Translations under genes and position numbers: made by a program
The notes under the pieces: model-generated
What the model was told of the DNA's origin: nothing
Seen by the model: the letters and a program-made list of their open reading frames with translations, nothing else
The model's database searches: none
Shown here: piece by piece, positions 4,676 to 36,001 of the stretch
Layout of the letters: each line of letters opens with the position of its first letter
Position numbering within the stretch: the first letter of the stretch is position 1
Assembly: GCA_005877615.1 (NCBI GenBank)
Contig: VBOD01000078.1
Coordinates: 1 to 36,001 of the forward strand
Length of the DNA: 36,001 nt
Origin: Nitrospirota bacterium
Lineage (GTDB): Bacteria > Nitrospirota > Nitrospiria > Nitrospirales > NS-4
Reading direction: 5' to 3'

Positions 4676-4793
4676 GAGCGGGTCCTGTCGCCGCATCACC
4701 CGGACGTGCTCAGATCCTTTCGCCGTAGCAGCCACGCAGACTCGGCTGTAGGCTCTTCCGCTCCGCCCGGGTCCCATGCGGCGCCACCCGCTC
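4676..4793 (+). repeat. Interspersed palindromic repeat, copy 3
   Basis: A 118-bp copy starting GAGCGGGTCCTGTCGCC 6 nt after the pgi stop and ending GGCGCCACCCGCTC. Its interior carries the second core type (TTTCGCCGTAGCAGCC... ACTCGGCTGTAGG), shared with copy 5 and not with copies 1 and 2. It lies between the convergent pgi and ppgK genes. Confidence 0.85.
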
Positions 4794-20147: not shown

Positions 20148-22739
20148 ATGATCCGGTTTGACCGAATGACCATCAAGGCGCAGGAAGCCCTTGCGGAAGC
20201 CCAGAAGCTGGCCGAAAAGGCGGGCCACCAGCAACTCGATGTCGAGCACCTGGCGCTGGCCTTGGTGCTCCAGCGCGAAGGGCTGACGCAAAGCCTGCTG
20301 AACAAGTTGGGCGCAGATCCTGACGTCCTCGCGCGTGCACTCGAGCAGGAGCTCAAGAAGATCCCGCAGGTCTCAGGGTCGGGCGCGACTGGCGTAGCCG
20401 GCATCACCCCCCGCCTCCGGGATGTGTTTTCCGCCGCCGAGCAGGAGGCGGAACGGTTCAAGGACGAATATCTCAGCACCGAGCATTTGTTGCTGGCCAT
20501 CGTGGACGCGGGCGGTACAGCCGCTGGCGTGTTGAAGCGGCAGGGCGTCTCGAAAGATCGGCTCTATGCCGCGCTGACCGCAATCCGAGGCACCCAGCGC
20601 GTCACGGACCAGGAGCCCGAGGAAAAATACCAGGCCCTCGCGAAATACAGCCGTGATCTCACCGACCTTGCCCGCAAGGGCAAACTCGATCCCGTCATCG
20701 GCCGGGACGAAGAAATCCGCCGCGTGATCCAGGTCCTCTCCCGGCGCACCAAGAACAATCCGTGCCTGATCGGTGAGCCAGGCGTGGGCAAGACGGCCAT
20801 TGCGGAGGGGCTGGCGCAGCGAATTGTGAACGGCGACGTGCCGGAAGGGCTCAAGGAGCGACGCGTGGTCGCGCTGGACATGGGAGCCTTGGTCGCCGGC
20901 AGCAAGTTCCGCGGGGAGTTCGAAGAGCGGCTCAAGGCGGTGCTGCGCGAGATCGAAGAGAGCGCCGGCTCGATCATCCTCTTTATCGATGAGATCCATA
21001 CTCTGGTTGGCGCGGGGGCGGCCGAAGGCGCCATGGACGCCTCCAACATGCTGAAACCGGCGCTCGCGCGCGGCGACCTCCGATGCATCGGGGCGACCAC
21101 GCTCGACGAGTACCGGAAACGCATCGAGAAGGACCCGGCGCTGGAACGCCGGTTCCAACCTGTGTACGTGGCCGAGCCGAGCGTGGAGGACACGGTCTCG
21201 ATCCTGCGCGGCCTCAAGGAGCGGTACGAGGTCCACCACGGAGTGCGGATCAAGGATGCGGCGCTCGTGGCCGCCGCGACGATGTCCAACCGGTACATCC
21301 GGGATCGGTTCCTGCCGGACAAGGCGATCGACCTCGTGGATGAAGCCGCGTCCCGCCTGCGTATGGAGATCGACAGCATGCCCACGCCGCTGGATGAGCG
21401 CATGCGCCGGATCCGCCAGCTCGAGATCGAGCGGGAGGGCATCCGGCGGGACAAGGATGCACAGTCGCAGGAGCGGCTGGAGAAAATCGAGCGGGAGCTC
21501 GTCCAGCTGCGCAAGGAGACCGACGCGCTCACGATGCAGTGGCAGGCCGAGAAGGACGCCATCAAGAAGATCCGCGAGATCAAGGAGAAGATGGAGCAGG
21601 TCCGCATGGAGGCGGATCGCGCGGAGCGCGAAGGCGATCTTGGCCGGGCGGCGGAGCTGCGCTACGGACGGGCCCTGGATCTGGACAAGCAGTTGAAGGC
21701 GGAGAACGAACGCCTCCAGAAGCTGCATGGCGAGACGCGGCTGCTCAAGGAAGAAGTGGACGAAGATGACATCGCGCGGATCGTCGCCAAGTGGACCGGC
21801 ATCCCCGTGACGCGGTTGATCGAAACCGAGACAAAGAAGCTCGTGCAGATGGAAGACCGGCTGCGGCAGCGGGTCGTCGGGCAGGACGAGGCGATCGTGG
21901 CGGTGTCGGACGCGGTCCGGCGGGCGCGGGCCGGCATCCAGGATCCCAAACGGCCGATGGGGTCCTTCATCTTTCTGGGGCCCACGGGCGTGGGGAAGAC
22001 CGAATTGGCACGGGCGCTGGCCGAGTTCCTGTTCGATGACGAGCAGGCGATGGTCCGGCTCGACATGTCGGAGTACATGGAGAAGCACGCGGTCGCGCGG
22101 CTGATCGGGGCGCCGCCGGGGTACGTGGGCTACGATGAGGGCGGCCAGTTAACGGAGGCCGTGCGCCGGCGACCCTATACGGTCATCCTCCTGGATGAGA
22201 TCGAGAAGGCGCACCCTGATGTCCTCAACGTGTTGCTGCAATTGCTGGACGACGGCCGGCTGACGGACGGCAAGGGGCGGACGGTGGACTTCAAGAACAC
22301 CGTGGTGATCATGACCTCGAACGTCGGTAGTCGGGAGATTCAGGAGGCAGCGGCGGATGGCAACGAAGCGGAGATGAGGAGCCGCGCCCTAGAGGTGCTG
22401 CGTGGTCACTTCCGTCCGGAGTTCCTGAACCGCATCGACGACATCGTCGTCTTCCACCCGCTGACGCCCGAGCAACTGGCGGCGATTGTGGAATTACAAG
22501 TCAAGCAGCTGATTGGCCGGTTGCAGGACAAACACATCACGCTGGTCCTCACGGACCGGGCCAAGCAGCACCTGGCGTGGGCCGGCTACGATGTCGTGTA
22601 CGGCGCTCGGCCCCTCAAGCGGTTGCTGCTGCGGGAGATCATCAATCCGCTGGCGCTCAAGCTTCTCGATGGGACTGTCAAAGAAGGGCAGACAGTGCGA
22701 GTGGACGAGAAGGACAGGCGTCTGGTCTTTCTGCCCTGA
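20148..22739 (+). CDS. clpB: ClpB protein disaggregase
   Basis: A Hsp100 AAA+ chaperone that, with DnaK, dissolves protein aggregates after heat or other stress. At 863 residues it is full length. The N-terminal Clp repeat domain covers ~1-150 ([33 protein letters not shown]). NBD1 has Walker A GEPGVGKT (209-216) and Walker [16 protein letters not shown]. The coiled-coil M domain spans ~400-520, rich in Glu/Arg/Lys. NBD2 has GPTGVGKT (611-618), [14 protein letters not shown] and the sensor-2 region [17 protein letters not shown] precedes the ATG. It stands alone, divergent from the sulfur operon. Confidence 0.97.
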
Positions 22740-22778
22740 AAATTTTACACGAGTCCTGGTCGAGTGTATTTTTCCCCC

Positions 22779-22807
22779 TTGACAGTTTCCGATCGGGCTG
22801 CTATTAG
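22779..22807 (+). promoter_or_regulatory. Sigma70-type promoter of regulator-TPR-FecR operon
   Basis: A perfect TTGACA (22779-22784), a 17-nt spacer and TATTAG (22802-22807). The expected transcript start, about 22814, gives a leader of roughly 30 nt for the regulator gene, and probably for the two genes behind it. Confidence 0.65.
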
Positions 22808-22842
22808 TACGCTCCTCTCCAGCGAAAATGTCGGGAGCGTGC

Positions 22843-23418
22843 ATGCCTGCCCGTAGAGTTGTTCATCTGCTCCTACTGACCGCCAATCCGGACCTTGCCG
22901 AGCTCTACCGCCAGGATTGTCCCGAGTGCGTCGTTACCATCGCCGTTGACGCGGCATCGGCGGTCCGCAAAGCCCCCAAGCACCGGTTCGATACCGTCAT
23001 CATCGAGTCGCGTAAGGACTGGGTTCATGAGATGAAAGTCCTGAGTGAGGTGCTGGAGCCCGTGCCCCCGTTGGTGTTGGTCGGGGAGGCGGCGTTCCTG
23101 CGCCGGGCGACCGAACCGGTCAAGGATTTGTGCAACGGCCACAGGGCGCCTCGCGGCACGACGAAGCTCCATCACGATTTGGGACTGGAGGAATTCATCG
23201 GCACGAAGCTTCGCGATTTCGTGCGCCGCATGAAACTGGGGGCGGGGTCCGACATCCATTCGCTGTTGGTCAAGGCGGTGGAGAAACCCTTGATCACGCT
23301 GGTGCTGGAAGAGACCCACGGCAACCAGAACCAGTCCGCCGCGCTGCTCGGCCTGAACCGCAACACCCTTCGCAAGAAGATCCGCGACCTCAAGATCACG
23401 ATCGCCAAGAAGGCATAG
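22843..23418 (+). CDS. Pseudo-receiver/Fis-type DNA-binding regulator
   Basis: A 191-residue regulator. Residues ~5-105 look like a receiver fold (VVHLLLLTANPDLAELYRQ ... FDTVIIESRKDW ... VPPLVLVG). The phosphoacceptor Asp expected after the third strand is replaced (VIIES), so phosphorylation is unlikely. The last ~50 residues are a Fis/HTH_8 domain (VEKPLITLVLEETHGNQNQSAALLGLNRNTLRKKIRDL), very like Fis and the NtrC tail. There is no AAA+ domain, so it should not activate sigma54 directly. I chose the ATG at 22843 because GGGAG lies 5 nt upstream; 22828 is the alternative start. It precedes the TPR-barrel and FecR genes and has its own good promoter. Confidence 0.8.
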   Translation: MPARRVVHLLLLTANPDLAELYRQDCPECVVTIAVDAASAVRKAPKHRFDTVIIESRKDWVHEMKVLSEVLEPVPPLVLVGEAAFLRRATEPVKDLCNGHRAPRGTTKLHHDLGLEEFIGTKLRDFVRRMKLGAGSDIHSLLVKAVEKPLITLVLEETHGNQNQSAALLGLNRNTLRKKIRDLKITIAKKA

Positions 23419-23432
23419 TTACGGACTTCCGG

Positions 23433-25019
23433 ATGCTGGTCAAGTCCTGCATTGTCCGGGTTTCCCTGTTGAGTGTGGCGATCTTTCTGCTCGCTGCCTC
23501 TTCATACGCGCAAGGCGCCCTTTCCTCGGAAATCTACGACCTGAATTTTTCAAAAGGGTTGGCCGAGTTCGAATCGAGGCGGTACGACTCGGCTGAAAAG
23601 TTCATCCGCAAAGCACTTGAGGCGAAGCCGGGCGATCCCCAAGCGACCTTCTACCTGGGCCAGACGCTCACCCGCGCTCAAAAGTACGGTGAGGCGGAGG
23701 CAGTGTTCCGCAATCTGCTGCAGATGCAACCGGGCTCCGGTCGTGCCTATTTGGGCTTGGGGATTGTGCTCTACAACCAAGAACGGTATCGCGAGGCGCT
23801 CGACAGCCTCGCGCTGGCTGAAAAGGCCTCCCCCAACGAGGCCCTGGTCTACTACTACCAAGGCCTCTCGCATTTCAAGCTGGCCGAGTACCAGCAGATG
23901 CCGCCACGGTTCTTGCGCGCCATGACGTTGGGTCCTGACCTGTCCTCCTCGGCCCATTACTACAGCGGCCTGGCCTATTACCAGCAGGGTATCCTGGATG
24001 AGGCCCGAGCCGAATTCGAGGAGGCGCAGAAACTGCAACCGGAATCGGAGTTCGGGAAGTCGGCCGCAGCTTACTTGGAACAGATCAAGACCGGCGTGCC
24101 CATCCAGCAGAGGAAGAGATGGGATCTGATCTTCAGCGTCAGCTCCCAATGGGATGACAACGTTGTCTTGCTGCCGAGCGGGTTCTCTCCTCCTGCTGGA
24201 CCTACCGGCATCTCACGGAGCAGCGATTATCGGACGGCCCTTTATCTGAGGGGGGAAGCCCGAGCGTTCGAGCAGGGGCCTTTCGTTGCAGGGGCCAGTT
24301 ATGCCTTGTATCAGAGCTTCCATCGGACCCTCAGCGCATTCGATGTCGAGTCGCATACGCCGACCGTCTTCGTGCAGCACACGGCCGGTCCGGTGCAGAC
24401 GCGCCTCCAGTACATCTATGATTATGTGCTGGTGGGCCGGTCGCCGTTTCTCGTCGCCCACTCCATTGCGCCGCTGATCACCGTCCGGGAGTCGCCAACC
24501 CTGCTCACGCAAGTTCTCCTCAAGTATCAAAACCTGGATTTCAAGGACGGCCGGTTCCTGTTCAACTCGTTCCGTGACGGTCATGACTGGCTGGCCGGCG
24601 CCATGCAATATTGGTTCTTTGCCAAGACGACCGGGCATGTCCGGGTCGGCTATACGTATGACGAGTACATCACGGCGGGGAAGGATGTCTCCCTGGCGGG
24701 GACGGCGTCGGCAGCGGACTGGGCCTACCGGGGGCATAAAGCATCGGTAGGAGTCAGCTTGCCCCCGTTCTATAAAATCATCCTGGATGCCGGGTTTGAT
24801 TATTACGTCCAACTGTATGACAATGCAAACTCGTTCTCACCAGGAGGGGCTGTCTTCCGGACGGACAAGCTCTATAACTATTACGCGACGGTCATGCGGC
24901 GGCTGACGGACCACTTCGCGCTGGGGCTTCAGTATGTGCATACCGACGACAATTCCAACATCGCGGCTTTTAAATACAAGCGCAACATCTATGGCCTGGT
25001 CCTGACGGGACAATTCTAA
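23433..25019 (+). CDS. TPR protein with outer-membrane beta-barrel
   Basis: A 528-residue envelope protein. A signal peptide (IVRVSLLSVAIFLLAASSYAQG) is followed by about five TPR units (~35-205; for example AEKFIRKALEAKPGDPQATFYLGQTL). From ~220 the sequence alternates aromatic and polar residues in long strands (RWDLIFSVSSQWDDNVVLLP ... RGEARAFEQGPFVAGASYALY ... RNIYGLVLTGQF) and ends in Phe, the usual signature for insertion by the BAM complex. It may secrete or display a partner such as the FecR proteins (inference). I start at 23433 because the signal peptide begins there, although no ribosome-binding site is evident. It is 14 nt after the regulator and 9 nt before FecR 1, and resembles the partial gene at the right edge. 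Confidence 0.82.
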   Translation: MLVKSCIVRVSLLSVAIFLLAASSYAQGALSSEIYDLNFSKGLAEFESRRYDSAEKFIRKALEAKPGDPQATFYLGQTLTRAQKYGEAEAVFRNLLQMQPGSGRAYLGLGIVLYNQERYREALDSLALAEKASPNEALVYYYQGLSHFKLAEYQQMPPRFLRAMTLGPDLSSSAHYYSGLAYYQQGILDEARAEFEEAQKLQPESEFGKSAAAYLEQIKTGVPIQQRKRWDLIFSVSSQWDDNVVLLPSGFSPPAGPTGISRSSDYRTALYLRGEARAFEQGPFVAGASYALYQSFHRTLSAFDVESHTPTVFVQHTAGPVQTRLQYIYDYVLVGRSPFLVAHSIAPLITVRESPTLLTQVLLKYQNLDFKDGRFLFNSFRDGHDWLAGAMQYWFFAKTTGHVRVGYTYDEYITAGKDVSLAGTASAADWAYRGHKASVGVSLPPFYKIILDAGFDYYVQLYDNANSFSPGGAVFRTDKLYNYYATVMRRLTDHFALGLQYVHTDDNSNIAAFKYKRNIYGLVLTGQF

Positions 25020-25028
25020 GGAGGCTCC

Positions 25029-26015
25029 ATGCGACACGCGTTGCGATACACAGTCCTGCTGCTGGGGATCGGGACGACCATGGCAATCGGCTGGCCGGTC
25101 GGCGCGCAAGGGCTCACGCAGCAGGCCATCGGGTTTTATTTGACGGTCATCGGCAAGCCCACTGTGGTACATGTGGGTCAACCGGCAGCGATGCCGGTGA
25201 AGCTGCGGGAGAGTGTGTATTTCAAGGACGTGATCGAGACGCAGGCGGACTCCCGTGCGAAGGCGCTGTTTGACGATGACAGTATCCTGACGGTGGGCGA
25301 GAACAGCCGGGTGGAGGTCAGCGAGTATATCTACGATCCGGCCAACAACCAGCGGAGCTCGGTGCTGCGGATGATCCAGGGCAAGGCGCGAGCGCTGGTG
25401 GGCAAGCTCTTTGCAGGACTGGGGTCCAAGTTCGAGGTGCATACACCCACTGCCGTGGCCGCGGCGCGAGGTACGTATTTTGTGGTGTGGATTGAAGAGA
25501 AGGCCAGCCGGAAGATGGGCTTGAACGAGATCGGCACGGTCCGACCGGTGTCCGTCCAGGGCCCCGAGGTGGCAGAACTGCAGGCGGGAGGGACCGGGGT
25601 CGCGAACATCGGGAGTTCCGGGAATGTCGCGTTCACATCGGGGGGGAAGACGGTGGAGGTGCCGCCGGGCAGCTATGCCTTCGCGCCGCCAGGGATGCCG
25701 CCGTTCGCGCCAGTGATCATCACGCCGACCGCGCCTCCTGGGGTCACAGGCGCGATTGCGAGTACGGAGGTGCCGGATGTGCCACAACCGGAATCACCGA
25801 GCCAGGTGGTTACAGCTTTAGGGCAAGGCGTTGTGCCGTTAGTTGGGGCGGGCGGGCCCATCATTGCGCCCCCTCCACCGGTTCTACCAGGTCTAACGCC
25901 TCCAAGCCCGATTTCAGGAGCTGGGATTTCCGCCATCATAAACACGCCAGGGATCAATCTGCTATGTGGTGTCGTTAGGGTGTGTCAAGCTGAGTGCCCG
26001 AGTTGCGCCGAATGA
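25029..26015 (+). CDS. Secreted FecR-domain protein 1
   Basis: A 328-residue exported protein with signal peptide (YTVLLLGIGTTMAIGWPVGAQG, cleavage near AQG). The FecR-type beta-sandwich covers ~35-170 (VYFKDVIETQADSRAKALFDDDSILTVGENSRVEV ... EVHTPTAVAAARGTYFVVW). A Pro/Gly-rich tail follows and ends CQAECPSCAE. It has no transmembrane anchor and no ECF sigma partner nearby, unlike classical FecR. A strong AAGGAGG precedes the ATG, 9 nt after the TPR gene, so it is cotranscribed. It is a close paralogue of FecR 2 over the first ~255 residues, after which the tails differ except for the final Cys motif. Confidence 0.85.
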   Translation: MRHALRYTVLLLGIGTTMAIGWPVGAQGLTQQAIGFYLTVIGKPTVVHVGQPAAMPVKLRESVYFKDVIETQADSRAKALFDDDSILTVGENSRVEVSEYIYDPANNQRSSVLRMIQGKARALVGKLFAGLGSKFEVHTPTAVAAARGTYFVVWIEEKASRKMGLNEIGTVRPVSVQGPEVAELQAGGTGVANIGSSGNVAFTSGGKTVEVPPGSYAFAPPGMPPFAPVIITPTAPPGVTGAIASTEVPDVPQPESPSQVVTALGQGVVPLVGAGGPIIAPPPPVLPGLTPPSPISGAGISAIINTPGINLLCGVVRVCQAECPSCAE

Positions 26016-26034
26016 TGAAGGATGATGCTGGTGA

Positions 26035-26245
26035 GAACCTATCTGATTCGATAAGGTGACTATCCTTCTATAGAAGCCTATAGAAGCTCAGCTCGAAGCG
26101 ACCGAGAAAACTTCCCAGGTCATCTCAAGAGAGCTTGCCTGGGATGGACCGTGTTTTCCGAGCGATTCTGCGATCTTCTGCACAGCCTCCTGATCCTGTC
26201 CGGAAACGTCCTTGGCTCCCTAAACAAGGCACTCTTATTGCTCAC
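26035..26245 (+). promoter_or_regulatory. Conserved FecR upstream element, copy A
   Basis: These 211 bp align with 33115-33313 upstream of FecR 3. Identical stretches include a 22-nt run starting GAACCTATCTGATTCG, CGAAGCGACCGA, a 20-nt run with CAAGAGAGCTTG, GCGATTCTGCGA, and GGCACTCTTATTGCT. CCTATC/GATAAGG (26038-26056) can form a 6-bp stem with one bulged A. CCCAGG/CCTGGG (26114-26143) encloses the CAAG-AGAG-CTTG hairpin. A weak promoter-like TTGGCT-17-TTATTG lies at 26212-26240. It may be a structured leader RNA or a conserved upstream promoter region. It does not match the c-di-GMP riboswitch consensus as I know it. Confidence 0.65.
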
Positions 26246-26258
26246 CAAAAGTAAACCA

Positions 26259-26301
26259 TGACTCAGTGATTGCTTACCCTGTTGATCGGAGTGCTGAGTC
26301 A
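26259..26301 (+). promoter_or_regulatory. Inverted repeat before FecR 2
   Basis: TGACTCAG (26259-26266) and CTGAGTCA (26294-26301) form a perfect 8-bp inverted repeat with a 27-nt loop, ending just before the AGAAGGAGGG ribosome-binding site of FecR 2. It is a possible translation-control hairpin or operator. Confidence 0.4.
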
Positions 26302-26318
26302 TTCAGAAGGAGGGTGCC

Positions 26319-27359
26319 ATGCGATACAGGTTGCGATACACGTTTCTCCTGCTGGGGATCGGGGCGACCCTGGCAATCGGCTGGCCGGTCGGCGCGCAAG
26401 GGCTCAAGCAGCAGGCCATCGGGCTTTACATGGCGATTATCGGTAAGGTCACGGTCGCGCATGTGGGGCAACCGGTGGCGGTGCCAGTGAAGCTCCGCGA
26501 GGATGTGTACTTCAAGGACGTGATCGAGACGCAGGCCAGCTCGCGCGCCAAGGCGCTGTTCCAAGACGACAGCATCCTGACTGTGGGGGAAAACAGCCGT
26601 GTGGAGGTGAATGAGTTCATCTACGATCCGGCCAATAACCAGCGGAGCACGATACTGCGGCTGTTCCAGGGCAAGGCGCGGGCGCTGGTGGGCAAGCTCT
26701 TTGCGGGCCGGGGATCCAAGTTCGAGATACACACACCCACCGCCGTGGCCACGGCGCGAGGCACGTATTTTGTGGTGTGGATTGAAGAGGAGGCCGGCCA
26801 GAAAATGGGCATGAACAAGATCGGCACAGTCCGACCGGTGTTCGACCAGGGCTTCGAGGTGATGGAACTACAGGCGGGCGGGACCGGGGTCGCGAACATC
26901 GGGAACTCCGGGGATGTCGCGTTCACCTCTGGGGGGCAGACAGTAGTGGTGCCACCGGGCAGCTTTGCTTTCGCGCCGCCAGGGATGCCGCCGTTCGCGC
27001 CGGTGAAGATCACGTCGACCGCCCCTTCAGGTGTGACGGGCGCGATTGCGGGTACGGAGGTGCCGGATGTGCCTCAACCGGAGTCACCAGGCCAGGTGGC
27101 GGCGATTTCAGGGCAAGGTGTTAGGGCGTTAAATGAGATATATACTATTCTGACCGCCCCACCGACCGCGCCGCTGGCGGCCCCGCTAACCGCGCCGCTG
27201 ACGGCTCCGCTGACCGCGCCGCTGACGGCTCCGCTGACCGCGCCGCTGGCGGCCCCGCTAACCACGCCGCTGGCGGCGCCGTTGACCTCGCCGCTGACTG
27301 TCCCAGTTGTCCCGCCTCTCCCGGCCTCACAGGCCGAATGTTCGAGTTGCGCTCAATGA
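26319..27359 (+). CDS. Secreted FecR-domain protein 2
   Basis: A 346-residue exported paralogue of FecR 1, with the same signal peptide form (LLLGIGATLAIGWPVGAQG) and FecR domain (VYFKDVIETQASSRAKALFQDDSILTVGENSRVEV ... EIHTPTAVATARGTYFVVW). The tail differs: after PQPESPGQVAAISGQG comes a run of about eleven four-residue APLT/APLA units, then SQAECSSCAQ. The final QAECxSCA motif is shared with FecR 1 and may form a disulfide or a thiol attachment (inference). AGAAGGAGGG precedes the ATG. It has its own 303-bp upstream region holding conserved element A, so it is probably regulated separately from FecR 1. Confidence 0.85.
   Translation: MRYRLRYTFLLLGIGATLAIGWPVGAQGLKQQAIGLYMAIIGKVTVAHVGQPVAVPVKLREDVYFKDVIETQASSRAKALFQDDSILTVGENSRVEVNEFIYDPANNQRSTILRLFQGKARALVGKLFAGRGSKFEIHTPTAVATARGTYFVVWIEEEAGQKMGMNKIGTVRPVFDQGFEVMELQAGGTGVANIGNSGDVAFTSGGQTVVVPPGSFAFAPPGMPPFAPVKITSTAPSGVTGAIAGTEVPDVPQPESPGQVAAISGQGVRALNEIYTILTAPPTAPLAAPLTAPLTAPLTAPLTAPLTAPLAAPLTTPLAAPLTSPLTVPVVPPLPASQAECSSCAQ
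27164..27300 (+). repeat. 12-bp tandem repeat inside FecR 2
   Basis: About eleven imperfect units of the type CCGCTGACCGCG / CCGCTGGCGGCC encode APLT/APLA tetrapeptides. Such a GC-rich tandem array is prone to copy-number change without frameshift. Confidence 0.8.
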
Positions 27360-27390
27360 TGTTTGAAGGTTGATAGTAAAGGGAAGAGCC

Positions 27391-28551
27391 TCACGGCGTG
27401 CGTAGGCTGGGCTCTCCGGCGTTGAGCTTCACATCAACACACGCTCGAATGTAGAGCGACTCTCTTGCTTTCTGGCATTCGGCTGCGATTCGGTCCTTGG
27501 TGGCCGATCGTAGCTGAATCGCCACGCCCAGATCTTTCGAACACCGCATCCGCGCCTCCTCGGAAAGCTTCGCGCAGAAGGCAAAACCGCGGTCCAGCCC
27601 TCGCGCAGTGGCCAGGTTGCTCGCAAACCCGAGCAGACAATCCGCCGCATAGGCTTCCTGTTTTGACCGGCACAGGCGTATGAGCTCGTCTTCCCGCTCG
27701 ACATACTGCGCAACCAGGGCGCGTCCAATCCCGCGGTAACAGCCCGGCTTTGTCTCACTGGAGAGCGTCTCGCAGGCCGCGAACATGGCCGGGACTGATC
27801 CTCCGCTGGCCCATGAGACAAGGGCGATGAAATAGTAGTAGCAGTCGCTGCGGAGGTGCGGCTCGACGGCCGCGCACAGGTTGAGGTGGTGACGCGGGTC
27901 TGACGGCGGGGTCTGGGTTTTGACGATCTCGAAGGACCGTTCCATGAAGACGCCCAGGGCGCAAAATTTTCGCCCCAGCGGGAGAGAAAACTCCTTGCAG
28001 GCCGTTAAGGCTTGCTGGACATCAGAGAAATGGTGGGCGAGGCCGTGCCCCACTCCGTGCGCGCACTGCCAGTACGTGCGCCCATCACCAAGCTGGTCTT
28101 TCGGGCAGAGACGCGCCAAGGCCGGTGATGCCTCCTGAGGAAGCTGACGGAGGTACGCCGTCAGGACTGCGTGCTGACAGGCGTAGGCACAGCCTTCCTG
28201 GCAGAGGGCCATCGCCTCGGAAACGTTTCCGACCCGTGCATACATGGCTTCACTGAGGTGGTGGGCGGCCACATGGCAGAAGTTGCCAAACCCCGTTGAG
28301 GCGTCTGCTAGTTGGTAAAGCGTGAGCATGGCGATGGTCGGTCCCTGCGTCCGTAGGATTTCATGCAAGAGCCTGGTGTAACAGTTCTGGGGTTCCTCGC
28401 CGGGCGGAAGTCCGCTACCAGGCGGTTCACAAATCTTAATCAAGGCCTTGATGGAGTCTGGCGTGTTAGGCGTCGAGAGGGATTCAGCAGCCGCCTGGGA
28501 GCCGGTCGCCAGCACCACCGCTCCTACTGCCCACCATGCGGCATGCCTCAT
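27391..28551 (-). CDS. Secreted Cys-pair helical repeat protein
   Basis: I do not recognise a named family. The protein has a signal peptide (HAAWWAVGAVVLATGSQAAAES) and then helical repeats, each with cysteines about ten residues apart: CAAVEPHLRSDC, CETLSSETKPGC, CRSKQEAYAADC, CAKLSEEARMRC, CQKARESLYIRAC. These would suit one disulfide per repeat in an oxidising periplasm. The middle carries a His/Cys-rich stretch (CQEGCAYACQHA ... CAHGVGHGLAHHF) that could bind metal or heme. No CxxCH heme-c motif is present. I prefer the start at 28551, where the signal peptide begins; the frame continues to 28611, and neither start has a clear ribosome-binding site. It is convergent with FecR 2 and divergent from the first cyclase. 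Confidence 0.75.
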   Translation of the reverse strand: MRHAAWWAVGAVVLATGSQAAAESLSTPNTPDSIKALIKICEPPGSGLPPGEEPQNCYTRLLHEILRTQGPTIAMLTLYQLADASTGFGNFCHVAAHHLSEAMYARVGNVSEAMALCQEGCAYACQHAVLTAYLRQLPQEASPALARLCPKDQLGDGRTYWQCAHGVGHGLAHHFSDVQQALTACKEFSLPLGRKFCALGVFMERSFEIVKTQTPPSDPRHHLNLCAAVEPHLRSDCYYYFIALVSWASGGSVPAMFAACETLSSETKPGCYRGIGRALVAQYVEREDELIRLCRSKQEAYAADCLLGFASNLATARGLDRGFAFCAKLSEEARMRCSKDLGVAIQLRSATKDRIAAECQKARESLYIRACVDVKLNAGEPSLRTP

Positions 28552-28640
28552 CACGGCTAGGAAGGCTGCGTGCCCCCAAGGTCTCCGGCTGGGCCAATGC
28601 ATGGGGCACATCTTAATGAGTCGTACCAGTCAACACAAGC

Positions 28641-28679
28641 CGTTCACGGTTGAACGCGCAGTGCTTCTTTCAGGCTGAA
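28641..28679. promoter_or_regulatory. Two short palindromes between divergent genes
   Basis: CGTTCACGGTTGAACG (28641-28656) is a perfect 6-bp inverted repeat with a 4-nt centre. TTCAGGCTGAA (28669-28679) is a second palindrome. A possible -35, TTGACT (28682-28687), follows immediately. Both are candidate operators for the divergent Cys-repeat and cyclase genes. Confidence 0.35.
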
Positions 28680-28746
28680 CATTGACTTGAGCTTGCACAG
28701 TGACTACCCTGCCTCCACGGGCACAACAAGAGGGTACGCGACCAAC

Positions 28747-30897
28747 ATGCTCACGGTCTGGCTCGGGAAGACAAAGCGAATCGAACGGTTGGGGCTTGAC
28801 TTGGCCGTGCTTGTCACGATCGTCATGCTGACTTTGTTCATGCTGAACCCCTACCTGCTGGTCCGACTGGAAAACACCTCCCTCGATGCTCGATTCGTAC
28901 TGCGCGGCACTCGCCCTGCAGGCCATGAGGTCAAGCTCGTGCTGGTGGACGAGCCGAGCATCCGAGAGCTGGGTCGCTGGCCCTGGTCACGCGACAAACA
29001 CGCCCGCCTTATCGAACCCCTGAGCGAAGATGGCGCCAAGGTGATCGCCTTTGATTTCATCTTCAGCGAAGCCGAGGTAACAGAGAATCTGAAAGGGCTG
29101 AGGGAAATCAGCCAGGCGGCTGGCCTGGAGAAGAAAACTCCTTCGGAACTCCTGGCGATCCTGCGAAGCAAGATGGAAGCTGCCGACACCGACGCTCAGT
29201 TTGTGCGGAGCCTGGGCAGGGCCGGCAACGTCGTGCTGGCGCTTCCTTTGATTGTGCCGGAGGGGGACGTTGTCACCACAAATCCCAGGTTTCCCGGGGC
29301 GCCGGAATTTATCCAGAAAGCGCAGTTCATGTTAGTTCGTGAGTCCCGCAGCGGGGAAGCTCTAGAACCGTATCAGGCCAAGGACTCGATCCCGCCTCTC
29401 AAGCATTTCGCCGATGCAGCGGTGAGCCTCGGGCATGTATTCAGCATCCCCGATCTCGACGGCATCACCCGGCACGAGTATCTGGCCATCCGGTATGGCA
29501 ACGAGCAAGAGTACTACCCGTCGTTTGGGCTGGAAGTTGCGCGGCTCTATCTCGGCATGCCCCGCGAACGGATGTCGCTGATTCTGGGAGTCGGGGTACG
29601 CCTTGGCGACATCGTGATCCCAACCGACGGGAAAGCTCGAATGCTGATCGATCACATCGGCCCAGAGGAGAGCCTCCCGCACGTTTCGGCTTCCGACGTG
29701 ATTCACAGGCGGTTCTCTCCAGGAACCTTTACAGGGAAGGCCGTGTTGATCGGGGCCTCGGCCCTCGGCACATACGATCAGAAGGCCATCCCCTTCTCGG
29801 CCAATTTCCCCGGAGTAGAGAAAAACGCCACAGTCGTCGAAAACATTCTCCATCGCCGGTTCTTGCAGAGGAGCGTGTGGGCCGCTCCGGCGGATTTCGG
29901 ACTGATCCTCCTGTTCGGCTTGGGGTTCGGCACGGCGTTGACACGTATGCGCGCCCTGCAGGGTACCGCCCTTGCGGTGTCCGCGATCGTCGGCTATATC
30001 GTGCTCGCGCAGTACCTGTTCGTCGCGCACGGTCTCTGGATCGGTGCCGTGTATCCCCTGCTGACGGGGGGGCTGGTCTTTACCTCGATTACCGTATTGA
30101 AGTTCATGACCGAGGAAAAGCAGGCGAAGGAGATCCGTACCATGTTCTCCAGCTACGTGAGCCCCCGGATCGTCAGCGAGCTCATCAAGGATCCCGAAAA
30201 GGCGCGTCTGGGCGGCCACCGCAGGGAGCTGACCATGTTGTTCTCCGACGTTGTAGGATTCACGACGTTCAGCGAGCAGCATACGGCCGAGGAAGTTGTC
30301 ACCCAGTTGAACGAATATCTGGGTGCCATAACCGACGTGGTCTTCCAGTGGAATGGCACGCTGGACAAGTTCGTCGGCGATGCCGTGGTGGTCTTCTGGG
30401 GAGCCCCGCTCGACCAGCCTGATCACGCGGAACTGGCGGTCAAGTGCGCCCTGCATATGCGGAAGCGGCTGGAGGAACTCCAGGCAAAGTGGCGCGCGGA
30501 AGGGAAAGTCCCGCTGGACAACGGAATCGGGATCAATACTGGAGAAGCTCTCGTCGGGAACATGGGCGCCGAAGGGAAAAAGATGGACTACACGATGATC
30601 GGCGATCACGTCAATCTCGCCGCGCGGGTCGAGGGCTTGACCCGGAAATTCAAGGCCCCGATCATGATCACGGAATACACGCTGGAGTGCATCAAACCCC
30701 TCCTCACGGCCCAGGGCCACCCCGACAATCGAGCTCCGCTCGGGCACGTTCTGATCCAAGGCCTCGGCACGGTCAAGGTCAAGGGCAAGGACAAGCCGGT
30801 GGTGGTGTATTCGTTGAGGACGCTCGACCACAACGAGCCGTCACGGATCGTGGAGAGCGAGAGCCTCGCCCCGCAGGAGATCGGGAGCGATCACTAG
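28747..30897 (+). CDS. CHASE2-domain adenylate/guanylate cyclase 1
   Basis: A 716-residue membrane signalling enzyme. One N-terminal membrane helix (LDLAVLVTIVMLTLFML) leads into a periplasmic CHASE2 sensor (~45-330; DARFVLRGTRP ... VKLVLVDEPSIRELGRWPWSRDKHA ... GAKVIAFDFIF). Three membrane helices follow (~375-455), then a class III cyclase domain (~490-690). The catalytic set is complete: metal-binding D501 (FSDVVGF) and D545 (VGDAVVVF), base-recognising K541, and transition-state N623 and R627 (VNLAARVE). It should make cAMP, or possibly cGMP. The ATG at 28747 has AGAGGG about 12 nt upstream; a TTG at 28687 is a less likely start. It is followed by cyclase 2 after 39 nt. Confidence 0.9.
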   Translation: MLTVWLGKTKRIERLGLDLAVLVTIVMLTLFMLNPYLLVRLENTSLDARFVLRGTRPAGHEVKLVLVDEPSIRELGRWPWSRDKHARLIEPLSEDGAKVIAFDFIFSEAEVTENLKGLREISQAAGLEKKTPSELLAILRSKMEAADTDAQFVRSLGRAGNVVLALPLIVPEGDVVTTNPRFPGAPEFIQKAQFMLVRESRSGEALEPYQAKDSIPPLKHFADAAVSLGHVFSIPDLDGITRHEYLAIRYGNEQEYYPSFGLEVARLYLGMPRERMSLILGVGVRLGDIVIPTDGKARMLIDHIGPEESLPHVSASDVIHRRFSPGTFTGKAVLIGASALGTYDQKAIPFSANFPGVEKNATVVENILHRRFLQRSVWAAPADFGLILLFGLGFGTALTRMRALQGTALAVSAIVGYIVLAQYLFVAHGLWIGAVYPLLTGGLVFTSITVLKFMTEEKQAKEIRTMFSSYVSPRIVSELIKDPEKARLGGHRRELTMLFSDVVGFTTFSEQHTAEEVVTQLNEYLGAITDVVFQWNGTLDKFVGDAVVVFWGAPLDQPDHAELAVKCALHMRKRLEELQAKWRAEGKVPLDNGIGINTGEALVGNMGAEGKKMDYTMIGDHVNLAARVEGLTRKFKAPIMITEYTLECIKPLLTAQGHPDNRAPLGHVLIQGLGTVKVKGKDKPVVVYSLRTLDHNEPSRIVESESLAPQEIGSDH

Positions 30898-30936
30898 GCG
30901 TACGGCTTAGCTCGCTGTCACAAGGCGCATCACGCA

Positions 30937-32994
30937 ATGACCGCCTGGTCCCAAAAGTCAACATGGCTCTGGAGGCGTGGCGCTCTGTTCGGAGCCGTGG
31001 TGATGCTCGCGTCCGTCCTGGGGTTGATGGAAGGGATCGAGCGATGGGCCTACGACGTCATGTTCCACCTGCGTGGTCCGATCCAGCCGAAATCGCCCAT
31101 CATCATCGTTTCGATTGGAGAAGACTCCTTCGACGAACTGAACCTTCAATGGCCATGGCCCCGGGCGCTACACGGACAGTTTTTGGATATAGTGAGCCAA
31201 GGCAAGCCGGCTGCCATCGGCTTCGACATCGTGTTTCCGGAGCCCTCCTCCAGGGGCAGGAAAGATGACCAAGCCCTGGCCGAAGCGATCGGACGTGCCG
31301 GCAATGTAGTGTTGGCGGCTGCGCTCGCCCAAACCAAGGGCGCGCATTCCATCAAACACGATCTCAATGCCCCGATTCCCATCATTCGCGAGCGGGCAGC
31401 CGCTCATGGATTTGTCAATTTCAATCAGGACGAAGACGCCTTTGTGCGATCGGCATCGCTCGTCCGTCAGTTCCAAGGAAAGAAGATTGCCAGCTTCGAT
31501 CTTCAACTGTACCAGCTTGCGGTCAAAGCTGGGCTTCAAGCGGCGCCTCTCCCGGGAAAAGATTCCTTTCTCGTTAACTACCAGGGTGGACCACAATCAT
31601 TCGCGACGATTCCGTACTACCAAGTTTTGAATGGTGAGATAAAGCCCGATGTGTTCGCAGGCGCGATCGTCCTGCTGGGGGCAACGAGTCCGATCCTTCA
31701 TGACGTCTTCCCCACGCCGTTCGCCACGAGCGGTGAAATGCCGGGAGTGGAGATACACGCCAACATGCTTGAGACGCTTTTTCAGGGCAGCTGGCTTAGA
31801 AGGTCGCCTCTCTGGGTAAGCATTATCCTCACCTTGGCCGTTTGTTTTCTGGGGGTCTGGATCACGGACCGTCTCCGTCCGCTTGCTGCGCTCTTCGCGA
31901 TTGTAGGGTTGGCCTCCGGGTATGCCGTTGCAGCCCATGCGGCGTTTTTGTGGACCAGGCTCTGGTTGGACATCGCTCCAGTCCCTGTTGCCTTGTTATT
32001 GAGCTACGGTGCGACCGTCGTGGAGAACTTCATTAAGGTGCAGAGTGAGACGCGCAGACTCTCGCACTACTTCTCGCCTGACGTGGTGTCAGAGATCATC
32101 CGGCAAAAAGATGATGCGAGTCTGGCAAGCTCCCGTCGGCGACTCACAATCCTGTTTTCTGACATCCGTGGGTTTTCGGCGATGTCAGAGAAGATGTCTC
32201 CCGAGGAAGTGGTGACCTTCCTCCGTGAATATCTCACGGTCATGACAGACGTAGTGTTCCAGCACGGTGGCACGGTTGACAAGTACATCGGCGACGCCAT
32301 CATGGCGCTCTACAACGTGCCATTCGATCAGCGGGACCACGCGGCGCAAGCCGTGCGGACCGCACTCGCTTTTCAAGAGCGCCTCAGGCCGCTGGCAGCC
32401 CGCATTCTGTCGAAGTACGGCACGGACCTTCGATACGGGGTCGGCATTCATACTGGTGATGCTGTTGTGGGGACCATCGGAGCGGAACAACGTCTAGAGT
32501 ACACAGCCATCGGGGACACCATCAACCTGGCCTCCCACCTCGAAAGCATCACCAAGGATTTCAAAGTCTCCATCATCATCAGCGAGTCCACCCATGCGGA
32601 GATCAAAGACCAGTTCCTGACGCGGTATCTCGGAGAGGTGAAGGCCAAAGGCAGGGAGATTCCGGTCAGAATTTACGAGGTCGCTGAGGCAGACTTGCGC
32701 AAGGGGGAGCGTGTGGCGGTGAAGGCCGCTGTCGATATCGTCGAGGATAACGCAAGAGTTCACGCTACCGTGAGCGAGCTGAGCGAGAGCGGGTTACTCG
32801 TCGAGCATCTCCCGAAGGAATTCGAAAAGGGGAAAATCCTGCCTCTTCGCCTTGAGCTGTTCGGAGGCGCTCAGACCGTTGACGTCATCGCAAAAGTGGC
32901 GTGGAGCCGTGAGGATAAAGCAGGCTTCACCATCCTCTATCTTAAGTCTGATGACCGAACGATTATTGAGCGATTTATTATCCAGAACCGATGA
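30937..32994 (+). CDS. CHASE2-cyclase 2 with C-terminal PilZ domain
   Basis: A 685-residue paralogue of cyclase 1. An N-terminal helix (GALFGAVVMLASVLGLM) precedes a CHASE2 sensor (~35-275; DVMFHLRGPIQPKSPIIIVSIGEDSFDELNLQWPWPR). Three membrane helices and a class III cyclase domain (~400-575) follow. D409, K449, D453 and N530 are kept, but the transition-state Arg is H534 (INLASHLES, codon CAC), so activity may be lowered or altered. Residues ~585-685 form a PilZ-like domain with RxxxR (R588-R592) and ELSESG (614-619) in place of the usual D/NxSxxG. This suggests c-di-GMP input into cyclic nucleotide output. It probably shares a transcript with cyclase 1; the 39-nt gap has no strong ribosome-binding site. 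Confidence 0.88.
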   Translation: MTAWSQKSTWLWRRGALFGAVVMLASVLGLMEGIERWAYDVMFHLRGPIQPKSPIIIVSIGEDSFDELNLQWPWPRALHGQFLDIVSQGKPAAIGFDIVFPEPSSRGRKDDQALAEAIGRAGNVVLAAALAQTKGAHSIKHDLNAPIPIIRERAAAHGFVNFNQDEDAFVRSASLVRQFQGKKIASFDLQLYQLAVKAGLQAAPLPGKDSFLVNYQGGPQSFATIPYYQVLNGEIKPDVFAGAIVLLGATSPILHDVFPTPFATSGEMPGVEIHANMLETLFQGSWLRRSPLWVSIILTLAVCFLGVWITDRLRPLAALFAIVGLASGYAVAAHAAFLWTRLWLDIAPVPVALLLSYGATVVENFIKVQSETRRLSHYFSPDVVSEIIRQKDDASLASSRRRLTILFSDIRGFSAMSEKMSPEEVVTFLREYLTVMTDVVFQHGGTVDKYIGDAIMALYNVPFDQRDHAAQAVRTALAFQERLRPLAARILSKYGTDLRYGVGIHTGDAVVGTIGAEQRLEYTAIGDTINLASHLESITKDFKVSIIISESTHAEIKDQFLTRYLGEVKAKGREIPVRIYEVAEADLRKGERVAVKAAVDIVEDNARVHATVSELSESGLLVEHLPKEFEKGKILPLRLELFGGAQTVDVIAKVAWSREDKAGFTILYLKSDDRTIIERFIIQNR

Positions 32995-33114
32995 CAAGGT
33001 CGAACTGCCTAACCCAGCCTTCGGTTTTCTCGCAGACAGGCGGCCAGCTTCATGTCCCGAGAGGTCTGGAATGGCCTGTACGTCCTGTCGAGCAGCACGG
33101 CGCGCTCCAGGCAC

Positions 33115-33313
33115 GAACCTATCTGATTCGATAAGGAAGCTATCCTTCTTAATAGGAGCACAGCCCGAAGCGACCGAAAAGGATTTCCCAAGTTGTCTCA
33201 AGAGAGCTTGCCTGGTAGGAACGTGTTTTTCCCTGCGATTCTGCGAGACTTAGCATAGCTTCCTGTCAGGAAAACATCCTTGGCTTCCTAAACAGGGCAC
33301 TCTTATTGCTTAC
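33115..33313 (+). promoter_or_regulatory. Conserved FecR upstream element, copy B
   Basis: The counterpart of copy A (26035-26245), here upstream of FecR 3. The CCTATC/GATAAGG stem with bulged A (33118-33136), the CAAGAGAGCTTG hairpin (33199-33210), GCGATTCTGCGA and the TTGGCT-17-TTATTG pattern (33280-33308) are all kept. In the stem CCTTG...CARGG near the 3' end, A changes to G, which still pairs with U. Downstream, TTATTGCTTACAA is directly repeated (33303-33329). The element lies in the 416-bp gap 32995-33410; the first 120 bp of that gap show nothing recognisable. Confidence 0.65.
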
Positions 33314-33410
33314 AAGTTATTGCTTACAAACGAAAAACTGATCAGCGATTTCTCGTTCCGTGTCCGGAGTGGACAACACACCACTCGAAAAATGAAAGAG
33401 GGACGCACAC

Positions 33411-34409
33411 ATGAGACAAAGCGGGCTGTATAAGTTCATAGCCGTCCTGCTTCTCCTGTCCGCCCTCTGGCCTTCTCTGAGCTGGGCCGAGGCACTGCGC
33501 GGAGTCGGTATTGTGATCACCCTCATGGGACAAGCGACCGTTGTCAGGTCCGCTATACCCCAGCAAGTATTGCCGCTTAAGTTTCGGGACGAGCTGTTCT
33601 ACCGGGACCGTATCAGCACGCAGGAGCGCTCGATTGTCCGAGTGCTCATGGGAGACAAGGCTCTGGTCACCGTCAGGGAGCTGTCGGAACTGACGATCAC
33701 CGACGAGCCAGGCCGTCCTTCCATCGTGGATTTGGCGATGGGAAAAGTGAGTCTGGCCGTTACCCGCTCACGGATGAAGCCGGGCGAACCCATCGAGGTG
33801 CGCACCCACAATGCCGTCGTAGGGATCCGCGGCACAGTGCTGGTCGTCGAAGTCACGCCGGCTTTCACGACAGAGGTCTATGTCCTCAAAGGTTCTGTTG
33901 AAGTGATTCCCAGCGGCGCGCCTTCTGCCGCCGTTTTTGTGAACGCCTTCCAACACGTCACTGTCAGAGGGAATGGTGTGGGACCGATCACCTCGATTCC
34001 GCCTTCAGCGGTAGATCAGATTGTCCAAGACCTCAAGCCCTCCTATCAGCACACTGAGATCCCGGATGAGATGAAACAGGCGGTGAAGGAAATAGAGCAG
34101 TATAAGACCCAGGCGCTTGCAAAGGCACTCGCTTCTAAGCCGGCAACGCAGGAAATAGCCGAGTACCAGTTACAGGAAGCGACAAACCAAGACGCCAAAC
34201 CGATCCCAAAAGTGAAGGAGCCGAAACCCTCCCAGGTCCCTTCGCTTTCGATTACGGAATCCGAACCAGTCACCGCGACGACAGCCGCGACCTCCTCTGG
34301 TGGGCCTTCGCCTTCAGCTTCCATCACCGCGACGACGGGGCCGACACCCTCTAGGGGTCCTTCGCCTTCAGCTTCCATCATCGCGACGACGGGGCCGACA
34401 CGCCGCTGA
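33411..34409 (+). CDS. Secreted FecR-domain protein 3
   Basis: A 332-residue exported protein with signal peptide (FIAVLLLLSALWPSLSWAEA). The FecR domain covers ~40-190 (LFYRDRISTQERSIVRVLMGDKALVTVRELSELTI ... EVRTHNAVVGIRGTVLVVEV ... VYVLKGSVEVI). A charged helical linker and a Ser/Thr/Pro-rich tail with an 18-residue repeat (GPSPSASITATTGPTPSR) follow. It is clearly diverged from FecR 1 and 2 and lacks their C-terminal Cys motif, although it shares the upstream element with FecR 2. AGAGGG precedes the ATG. It is convergent with the TPR-barrel gene at the right edge. Confidence 0.85.
   Translation: MRQSGLYKFIAVLLLLSALWPSLSWAEALRGVGIVITLMGQATVVRSAIPQQVLPLKFRDELFYRDRISTQERSIVRVLMGDKALVTVRELSELTITDEPGRPSIVDLAMGKVSLAVTRSRMKPGEPIEVRTHNAVVGIRGTVLVVEVTPAFTTEVYVLKGSVEVIPSGAPSAAVFVNAFQHVTVRGNGVGPITSIPPSAVDQIVQDLKPSYQHTEIPDEMKQAVKEIEQYKTQALAKALASKPATQEIAEYQLQEATNQDAKPIPKVKEPKPSQVPSLSITESEPVTATTAATSSGGPSPSASITATTGPTPSRGPSPSASIIATTGPTRR
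34303..34404 (+). repeat. 54-bp tandem repeat inside FecR 3
   Basis: Nearly two units with a 54-bp period (CCTTCGCCTTCAGCTTCC starts at 34305 and 34359) encode an 18-residue Ser/Pro/Thr-rich repeat at the C-terminus. Confidence 0.75.
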
Positions 34410-34423
34410 GGGTCTGTTGCCTT

Positions 34424-34451
34424 CAACGACGGGGTCCCACGCGCCTCGTTG
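34424..34451 (+). terminator. Weak inverted repeat after FecR 3
   Basis: CAACGA (34424-34429) and TCGTTG (34446-34451) can pair shortly after the FecR 3 stop. There is no U-tract, so a terminator role is uncertain. Otherwise I see nothing in the 135-bp gap between these convergent genes. Confidence 0.25.
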
Positions 34452-34544
34452 ACAATTACCGCGATCCAAGCAAACACGCAGAACGCCATTCTCCTGCTGA
34501 TCAAGTAAGCCTAATGGTTCGTGGCTTCCAGTTGGGAGATACTT

Positions 34545-36001
34545 TCAATACGTCCAGGTGAGAATCAGCGAGAAGACATTCCGATGAAAGTCGAAGACGG
34601 CGAGGTTGGACTCGCTGAAGTCGCCCTGGTACTCCGCAGAGAGCGTCAGGTTATTCGGCAAGGGCTTCTCTATTCTGAAGAAATGGAACTGCTCGGTGTC
34701 TTTTCGCCTGACGGTGTAGGCGCGAAAGTGGATTTCGTAATCATAGCGCAGGCGAGTGCCTCCCCACGGGGTGGTATATTGGCCTCCGGCTAGACTCCGG
34801 TGCCCCGTGTAACTGAAGTTGCTCCCCTCGGCGTCCTCGAGGTCGAATTGATAGCCGAACCGAAGCAAGTGCTTATCGGCCCCGAAGCGAAAGGCGTGCA
34901 CAAAGCCCACCATCCAGTTCCTGGCGTCTCGGTTGTCCACCGGCGTGGTGGCAGCATCCTGGAAGAAGTTCTTGAATTGTAGCCGCCCCACGAGTGTCGT
35001 CAGGTTGCCCGGATTCTCAATGAGTGCGCCGAACCAGGTGATCGTGTGGCGTTCCAGAAACGGGGCGTCGTCGAGCAGGAGATAGTCATAGGTGTACTGG
35101 GTTCCGAGCTGAAAGGGCAGGGCCCCGACGACGCCCCGATAGAAGCCTCCCAGTTCACCCAGGTGGTCCTGAATTTTGCCGAAGCGCAAAAGACCGTGAT
35201 CGTATGGCTGGATATGAAGGAAAGAATAGGTGGCGGTGGCCTCCCAGGGACCATTCCGTAGCCAAGAATAATCCAGGCGTGCTGTCGCCAGCTCGCCGGG
35301 AGCGCGGCTCTTCCGTGTTCGAAGGCTCTCCGCCCTCGGATCATTGCTGGGTTGGGGGTTGAGAGATACATTGTCGTCATAGAAGAACCCGAGACGGACT
35401 TCTGCCCGTAAGCGACCCTCGCGTTCCCGAGCGGTGACGATGGTTTCCCGGATACGATCAGCCGGGCCCGTCTGTGGTGAACCGGGCTGAATCTTGAGCG
35501 CTTCTTCCACCTCAGCAGCCGCCCGCTCGGGCAAGCCCAAGAATCCCAGCGTGAGCCCTGTGTAAAATCTCGTGAGCTGTTGGATCGTGGGATCCGCCGA
35601 TGTTCCGGTCTTGAAGGCGTTGAGGGCACCTTGATAGTCGTCTCGCCGGTAACGCATGACGCCCACGTAGTAGCCCAGCGCTTCCAACTGTGGCTGCTCG
35701 CGAAAGATCTGCTCAAGCAGAGGACTTGCTTTCTCGTATTGCTCAAGCGCGAAGTAAGCGACCCCAAGCTGATAGAGGATAGACAGGTTGGTGGGGTTCT
35801 TCTCACGAGCCTTTTCGAAGTTCTGGACGGCTAGAGTCGGGTTCTTCTGGGCCAGATAGACCAAGCCGGTGTAATAGAGGGCGTCTACATGAGCCGGGTC
35901 TAATTTCAGCGCCTTTCGGAGCAGCCCGAGCGCCTCTTCGTACCGCCTGTCATCGTAGGCCAGGATGGCCTGCCCCACAAAGACATCGGCTTCGGATTGC
36001 T
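34545..36001 (-). CDS. TPR protein with outer-membrane beta-barrel (5' end beyond window)
   Basis: A partial gene: the reading frame is open to the window edge (…EADVFVGQAILAYDD) and the start is not included. At least 485 residues are visible. TPR units come first (YEEALGLLRKALKLDPAHVDALYYTGLVYL, AVQNFEKAREKNPTNLSILYQLGVAYF and more). A barrel-like half follows (RAEVRLGFFYDDNVSLNP ... WEATATYSFLHIQPYDHG ... RNVFSLILTWTY) with a C-terminal aromatic residue. The architecture, the DDNV motif at the TPR/barrel junction and the RNxxxLxLT ending match the TPR-barrel protein at 23433-25019, so the two are diverged paralogues at the two ends of the signalling island. The signal peptide should lie outside the window. 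Confidence 0.82.
   Translation of the reverse strand, partial: QSEADVFVGQAILAYDDRRYEEALGLLRKALKLDPAHVDALYYTGLVYLAQKNPTLAVQNFEKAREKNPTNLSILYQLGVAYFALEQYEKASPLLEQIFREQPQLEALGYYVGVMRYRRDDYQGALNAFKTGTSADPTIQQLTRFYTGLTLGFLGLPERAAAEVEEALKIQPGSPQTGPADRIRETIVTAREREGRLRAEVRLGFFYDDNVSLNPQPSNDPRAESLRTRKSRAPGELATARLDYSWLRNGPWEATATYSFLHIQPYDHGLLRFGKIQDHLGELGGFYRGVVGALPFQLGTQYTYDYLLLDDAPFLERHTITWFGALIENPGNLTTLVGRLQFKNFFQDAATTPVDNRDARNWMVGFVHAFRFGADKHLLRFGYQFDLEDAEGSNFSYTGHRSLAGGQYTTPWGGTRLRYDYEIHFRAYTVRRKDTEQFHFFRIEKPLPNNLTLSAEYQGDFSESNLAVFDFHRNVFSLILTWTY

Follow-up and report, generated by a model that had tools for sequence, protein, structure and literature searches.

The window analysed here, the whole of a 36,001-nucleotide contig from an uncultured Nitrospirota bacterium, raises the question of why two strongly diverged genes for exported FecR-domain proteins, FecR2 and FecR3 (29% amino acid identity, in agreement with the original prediction), are each preceded by nearly the same 200 bp of noncoding DNA. 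The original prediction had taken the better conservation of this element than of the genes behind it as a sign of function, and had suggested an RNA switch, perhaps one responsive to a nucleotide. Our analysis indicates that the element is very probably functional, as a complete sigma-54-dependent promoter region that combines a promoter box with an enhancer for a bacterial enhancer-binding protein (bEBP), was duplicated within the locus, and would co-activate FecR2 and FecR3 with surface, pilus and secretion genes. The features on which this reading rests are collected in Table 1.

Table 1. Positions of the element, its predicted parts and the genes discussed (window coordinates, unless a locus is named).
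Feature	Position	Strand	Remark
Copy 1, predicted enhancer-to-promoter region 5' of FecR2	26035..26245	+	aligned with copy 2
Copy 2, predicted enhancer-to-promoter region 5' of FecR3	33115..33313	+	aligned with copy 1
Putative operator core CTATCTGATTCGATAAGGTGACTATC, copy 1	26039..26064	+	exact pattern; dyad 1 26039-26054, next half-site 26060-26064
ATAG, right arm of second dyad, copy 1	26080..26083	+	invariant columns in alignment
Putative operator core CTATCTGATTCGATAAGGAAGCTATC, copy 2	33119..33144	+	exact pattern, invariant arms; dyad 1 33119-33134
Dyad 2 of copy 2, CTATC-N6-AATAG, 21 bp on	33140-33155	+	
Sigma-54 promoter GGCACTCTTATTGCT, copy 1	26228..26242	+	consensus score 10/11; -24 GG 26228-26229, -12 GC 26240-26241
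Sigma-54 promoter GGCACTCTTATTGCT, copy 2	33296..33310	+	consensus score 10/11
Untranslated leader of FecR2	26246..26318	+	~50 nt weakly homologous to copy-2 leader
FecR1	25029..26015	+	element absent upstream; orthologue in G003 likewise without element
FecR2, exported FecR-domain protein, tandem duplicate of FecR1	26319..27359	+	PF04773
FecR3, exported FecR-domain protein	33411..34409	+	PF04773; orthologous in G001/G002, homologous in Rokubacteria
Fis-type DNA-binding protein	22828..23418	+	PF02954; kept here in 4/4 genus genomes
Homologous GAF-domain enhancer-binding proteins near CTATC operators, two families	L222:2973-4559, L226:7407-8915, L233:7507-8979		

As had been predicted, the two regions were homologous over their full length (local score 201; the best of 500 shuffles reached 28), with identity at 172 of 194 ungapped positions (88.7%), or 78.5% over 214 columns when gaps were included. 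The 5' boundary of the element is sharp, and beyond its other end a weaker homology, missed by the original prediction, continues for ~50 nt into the leaders of FecR2 and FecR3 (score 39, a value that none of 1000 shuffles attained). The leader has not diverged significantly faster than the element (p = 0.21). No third copy was found in the 1.82 Mb of the window's own genome (G000, 90.5% complete), and a search of 58 relatives and 396 genomes of the phylum with the element DNA returned no further copy. Of three weak extra matches, those in G257 and G252 lie in apparently coding sequence and the third is in G286; an exact 22-mer of the element had no match among the genome contigs searched. The lengths of most indels separating the two copies are not divisible by 3, which makes a small coding sequence within the element unlikely.

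The identical blocks of 12-22 nt noted earlier are present, but they are no evidence of selection, since blocks of 10-22 nt are expected by chance at 84% identity over 205 alignment events. Clustering of the mismatches was not significant (p = 0.37), so that the two copies alone give no proof of blockwise selection. The comparison with the FecR genes was also unfair, because the split between FecR2 and FecR3 came first and the copying of the element was a later, independent event: FecR2 is a tandem duplicate of FecR1 (74% amino acid identity, dS 0.52) and FecR3 an old, separate paralogue. Recent duplication may by itself explain why the ~130 bp between operator and promoter box are well kept between the copies; this stretch differs from that of other operator-bearing promoters.

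Both copies end in GGCACTCTTATTGCT, likewise missed earlier, in which a -24 GG and a -12 GC lie exactly 12 bp apart in the YTGGCACG-N4-TTGCW context by which we recognized sigma-54 promoters; the consensus -26 T is missing from both. When both strands of the window were scanned, these two boxes were the only strict sites, and transcripts are predicted to start from them at ~26252 and ~33320. The same genome carries rpoN (PF04552, E = 3e-60) and 12 bEBP genes (12 PF00158 matches), and its other strict sigma-54 sites stand upstream of a type IV pilin and exported proteins. Copy 2 also contains a 14-nt tandem duplication (TTATTGCTTACAAG/TTATTGCTTACAAA, window 33303-33331) at the -12 box, near the predicted transcript start.

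The 5' part of the element reads CTATC-N6-GATAA-N5-CTATC, with dyads that repeat every 21 bp, or two helical turns. Its core lies at about -204 from the predicted start in copy 1, where an 8-nt insertion has shifted the right arm of the second dyad. The window's genome has three instances of the exact 26-nt pattern CTATCN6GATAN6CTATC, one in each copy of the element and one on contig C80. Among its nearest sampled relatives, which are members of the same genus, G001 and G003 have two each and G002 has one. The resulting eight occurrences in four genomes compare with about 0.06 expected (~0.016 per genome from base counting); the other 393 genomes together contained 14. At all eight genus sites a sigma-54 box scoring 10/11 lies 130-162 nt away, against a background in control loci of one such box per 105 kb. 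Since a single promoter accounts, through its orthologues, for four of the eight, and the duplicated copies for two more, the number of independent promoter families is four to five. The arrangement is that of bEBP enhancers, which are palindromic sites ~80-200 bp upstream, often in helical phase and common to co-regulated promoters. In a six-way alignment of both copies with the C80 promoter family from four species, the operator and the -24/-12 box were the only invariant runs, which is what the footprint of a two-part promoter would look like. A CAAG-AGAG-CTTG hairpin, to which attention had been drawn earlier, is present in both copies, but neither it nor GCGATTCTGCGA and the other blocks are kept in the C80 family; this hairpin and GCGATTCTGCGA, considered as shared operators, were also not convincing at the genome's other sigma-54 promoters. 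The box, the operator, their joint recurrence, rpoN and the 12 bEBP genes can all be read directly from the DNA.

From this arrangement we infer the binding, looping and activity of a bEBP, as follows. RNA polymerase bearing RpoN would bind the -24/-12 box and wait there as a closed complex, while the bEBP would bind the tandem dyads CTATC-N6-GATAR, about 190-205 bp upstream and two helical turns apart, loop back and drive promoter opening with ATP. In this way the few surface, pilus and secretion genes that bear the same operator would be switched on jointly with FecR2 and FecR3.

A structured 5' leader RNA, acting on FecR2 and FecR3 as a nucleotide-sensing riboswitch or attenuator, would account for the inverted repeats in the element and for a fold of copy 1 somewhat better than that of shuffled sequences (z = -2.0), and would suit the cyclase genes that lie between the copies; the upstream genes are co-directional, so that read-through RNA is possible, although it is not needed. 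Copy 2, however, folds no better than chance (z = -0.3), the lowest-energy folds of the two copies differ, and only 1 of 49 pairs in the two-sequence consensus is compensatory. Rfam gave 0 matches at the gathering threshold and only spurious ones at a permissive threshold, and a covariance model built from the two copies found no member beyond them in 58 genomes. The bulged stem-loop and the competing CTATCC from which a switch had been proposed do exist as motifs, but they correspond to the tandem DNA dyad, whose arms are fixed rather than covarying over ten sites while the spacers change. At other operator sites the outer G of GATAAGG is lost, which would break the RNA pair and leaves the DNA operator intact. 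The 3' stem with its pairing-preserving A-to-G change is also present, but it overlaps the sigma-54 box, and the change is the base just before the GG. Because transcription is predicted to start at ~26252 and ~33320, the element would lie upstream of, and outside, the transcript made from the sigma-54 promoter. Nothing that we found ties the element to cyclic nucleotides, and upstream of FecR genes in relatives there is no homologous copy, the short operator alone recurring, before other genes. We therefore regard an RNA switch as very improbable.

We give an equally small chance to a dispersed or mobile (MITE-like) repeat, or to a recent duplication without function, even though there are two copies only, with a sharp 5' boundary and unclustered mismatches, and none at the same genes in congeners. 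Further copies are lacking, and the operator and sigma-54 box recur jointly at unrelated loci in four species; because of this recurrence, the copied DNA represents a functional kind of promoter, however recent the duplication. The view that this is upstream promoter DNA, which the original prediction had held in reserve, was right in kind and wrong in the promoter assigned. An ordinary sigma-70 promoter (TTGGCT-17-TTATTG) with unrelated DNA upstream, suggested earlier by two weak hexamers, is the least credible of these alternatives: a consensus scan found no sigma-70 site in either region, and TTATTG coincides in part with the -12 half of a near-perfect sigma-54 box. We regard the sigma-54 promoter with its upstream enhancer as the highly probable reading.

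The locus itself (window 20148-36001; L040, L041 and L042) is a variable island between clpB-fis and thrS. G003 carries a single cassette there, with a TPR/outer-membrane protein, FecR1 and CHASE2a, and G001 and G002 carry the other, with CHASE2b, FecR3 and a TPR/outer-membrane protein; the island of the window genome holds both FecR/CHASE2/TPR-outer-membrane cassettes together. The element is absent at the corresponding places in G001, G002 and G003, whose FecR genes have neither the operator nor a sigma-54 box of at least 9/11 upstream. Control of FecR by the CTATC operator is therefore not conserved in the genus, and among the genomes sampled the recruitment of FecR2 and FecR3 to this operator appears specific to the window genome. 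The Fis-type protein beside the island is without an AAA+ domain and is therefore not itself a sigma-54 activator. Two further features of the island concern its proteins: FecR2 has a proline-rich repeat tail (PLTAPLTAPLAAPL..., window 27155-27320) that FecR1 does not have, and the CHASE2-cyclase at window 30937-32994 has a PilZ domain at its C terminus and may be a point where cAMP/cGMP and c-di-GMP signalling converge.

Besides the FecR genes, the operator precedes in this genus an exported Lon-like protein, a prepilin operon (contig C251 of G003) and a T2SSE/MshEN secretion-ATPase region (C13 of G001). The promoter of the Lon-like gene, that of C80, is conserved in 4/4 genus genomes, and its gene product (L227:2437-3399) is exported and has a Lon_C-like domain, without any match to an ATPase. 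A diverged operator and a sigma-54 box also precede an OmpL47-type surface protein on contig C85 of the window genome. The operator also occurs close to RTX genes of two Nitrospiraceae genomes (G041 and G181), where a box scoring 9/11 stands on its other side at a distance of 110 nt; several near-identical sigma-54 boxes, TGGCAC[CT]GATGTTGCCATA, were seen around RTX-repeat genes of these genomes (L225, L226 and L234).

The neighbours of these operators point to a candidate activator. In G003 the gene immediately preceding the prepilin operon encodes a GAF-domain bEBP, and the promoter of this operon contains a related operator (L222, dyad at ~4633 and box at 4765). A homologue of this bEBP in G181, 2.2 kb from the operator, is 56% identical to it over 491 amino acids, and one in G041 lies about 8 kb from the operator. 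Because the genes neighbour operators and this identity exceeds the ~37-49% seen among the remaining long bEBP matches compared, the GAF-bEBP is the leading candidate for the activator of the CTATC operator, its cognate role being suggested by gene order and similarity. No orthologue was located among the bEBPs examined of the window's genome. The best NCBIfam match of the candidate was NifA, below the cut-off (448.6 of 528.9 bits), and it also fell below that of PEP_resp_reg (339 of 503 bits).

A separate link between sigma-54 and FecR was seen in Rokubacteria, where sigma-54 boxes lie upstream of homologues of FecR3 in 10 of 13 loci (mean 0.7 and maximum 3 in shuffles). In four of the Rokubacterial FecR loci a bEBP gene is found within about 1-4 kb, of the receiver type in both of the two examined by Pfam. 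The exact CTATC pattern occurs in none of the Rokubacteria loci examined, and the activator site is therefore probably a different one; sigma-54 control of this type of FecR seems to recur with different activator sites. Across Nitrospirota generally, 2 of 20 FecR genes had a sigma-54 box upstream, no more than in shuffles. Rokubacterial FecR loci (L080-L083, L086-L090) often also have a bEBP gene and, in convergent orientation, a gene for a TPR/outer-membrane protein, and L087 has two FecR genes, each with a sigma-54 box.

Several known systems resemble this arrangement in part. The PEP-CTERM cis-regulatory element of Proteobacteria combines an activator motif 1 with a sigma-54 motif 2 and occurs with PrsR/PrsK (Haft et al. 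2006, PMC1569441). Like that element, the one studied here occupies a large intergenic region before exported surface proteins, with an upstream activator motif and a -24/-12 box. It differs in having CTATC-N6-GATAR tandem dyads where a TTTACA motif is mentioned in the upstream part of the PEP-CTERM element (PMC1569441), in its targets (FecR, prepilin and other exported genes), and in that the candidate activator nearby is a GAF-bEBP and not the receiver-type PrsR. That sigma-54 governs the bacterial exterior is a published theme, with sigma-54 promoters before envelope and exterior genes as here (Francke et al. 2011, PMC3162934), although FecR does not appear in the main text of that work, and here a specific operator and gene set are found in an uncultured Nitrospirota genus. 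In the BiofilmReg operon of Burkholderia (PMC5192318) a FecR-domain protein likewise adjoins a CHASE2 sensor; unlike the window locus, this operon has a CreB-type regulator with a histidine kinase and a single operon promoter, and sigma-54 is unmentioned.

Regulation by GAF-bEBPs of the NifA/FhlA type uses palindromic, paired upstream activating sequences, the NifA site being TGT-N10-ACA. The candidate activator, with GAF and sigma-54 activator domains, and the palindromic upstream sites follow this type, whereas the operator here is CTATC-N6-GATAR and the targets are surface and pilus genes.

We found no Nitrospirota sigma-54 regulon with a CTATC-N6-GATAR operator in the literature searched. 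On balance we favour, with modest confidence, the existence of such a regulon, run by a GAF-bEBP through the tandem operator, that controls pilus, secretion and surface genes and recently took over two FecR envelope genes of this species by promoter duplication. Comparable switches, few in number, stand before pilus and surface genes of related soil Nitrospirota, and the element would be one of them. What was at first an ill-defined stretch of conserved noncoding DNA can now be tested as a promoter with an operator, and its reading as an RNA switch has been corrected. Apart from the recurrent association of sigma-54 with FecR in Rokubacteria, the analysis provides a 26-nt pattern by which a limited number of genes for surface, pilus and secretion functions can be picked out in uncultured Nitrospirota, and a case of promoter copying that would bring a second gene under the same control.
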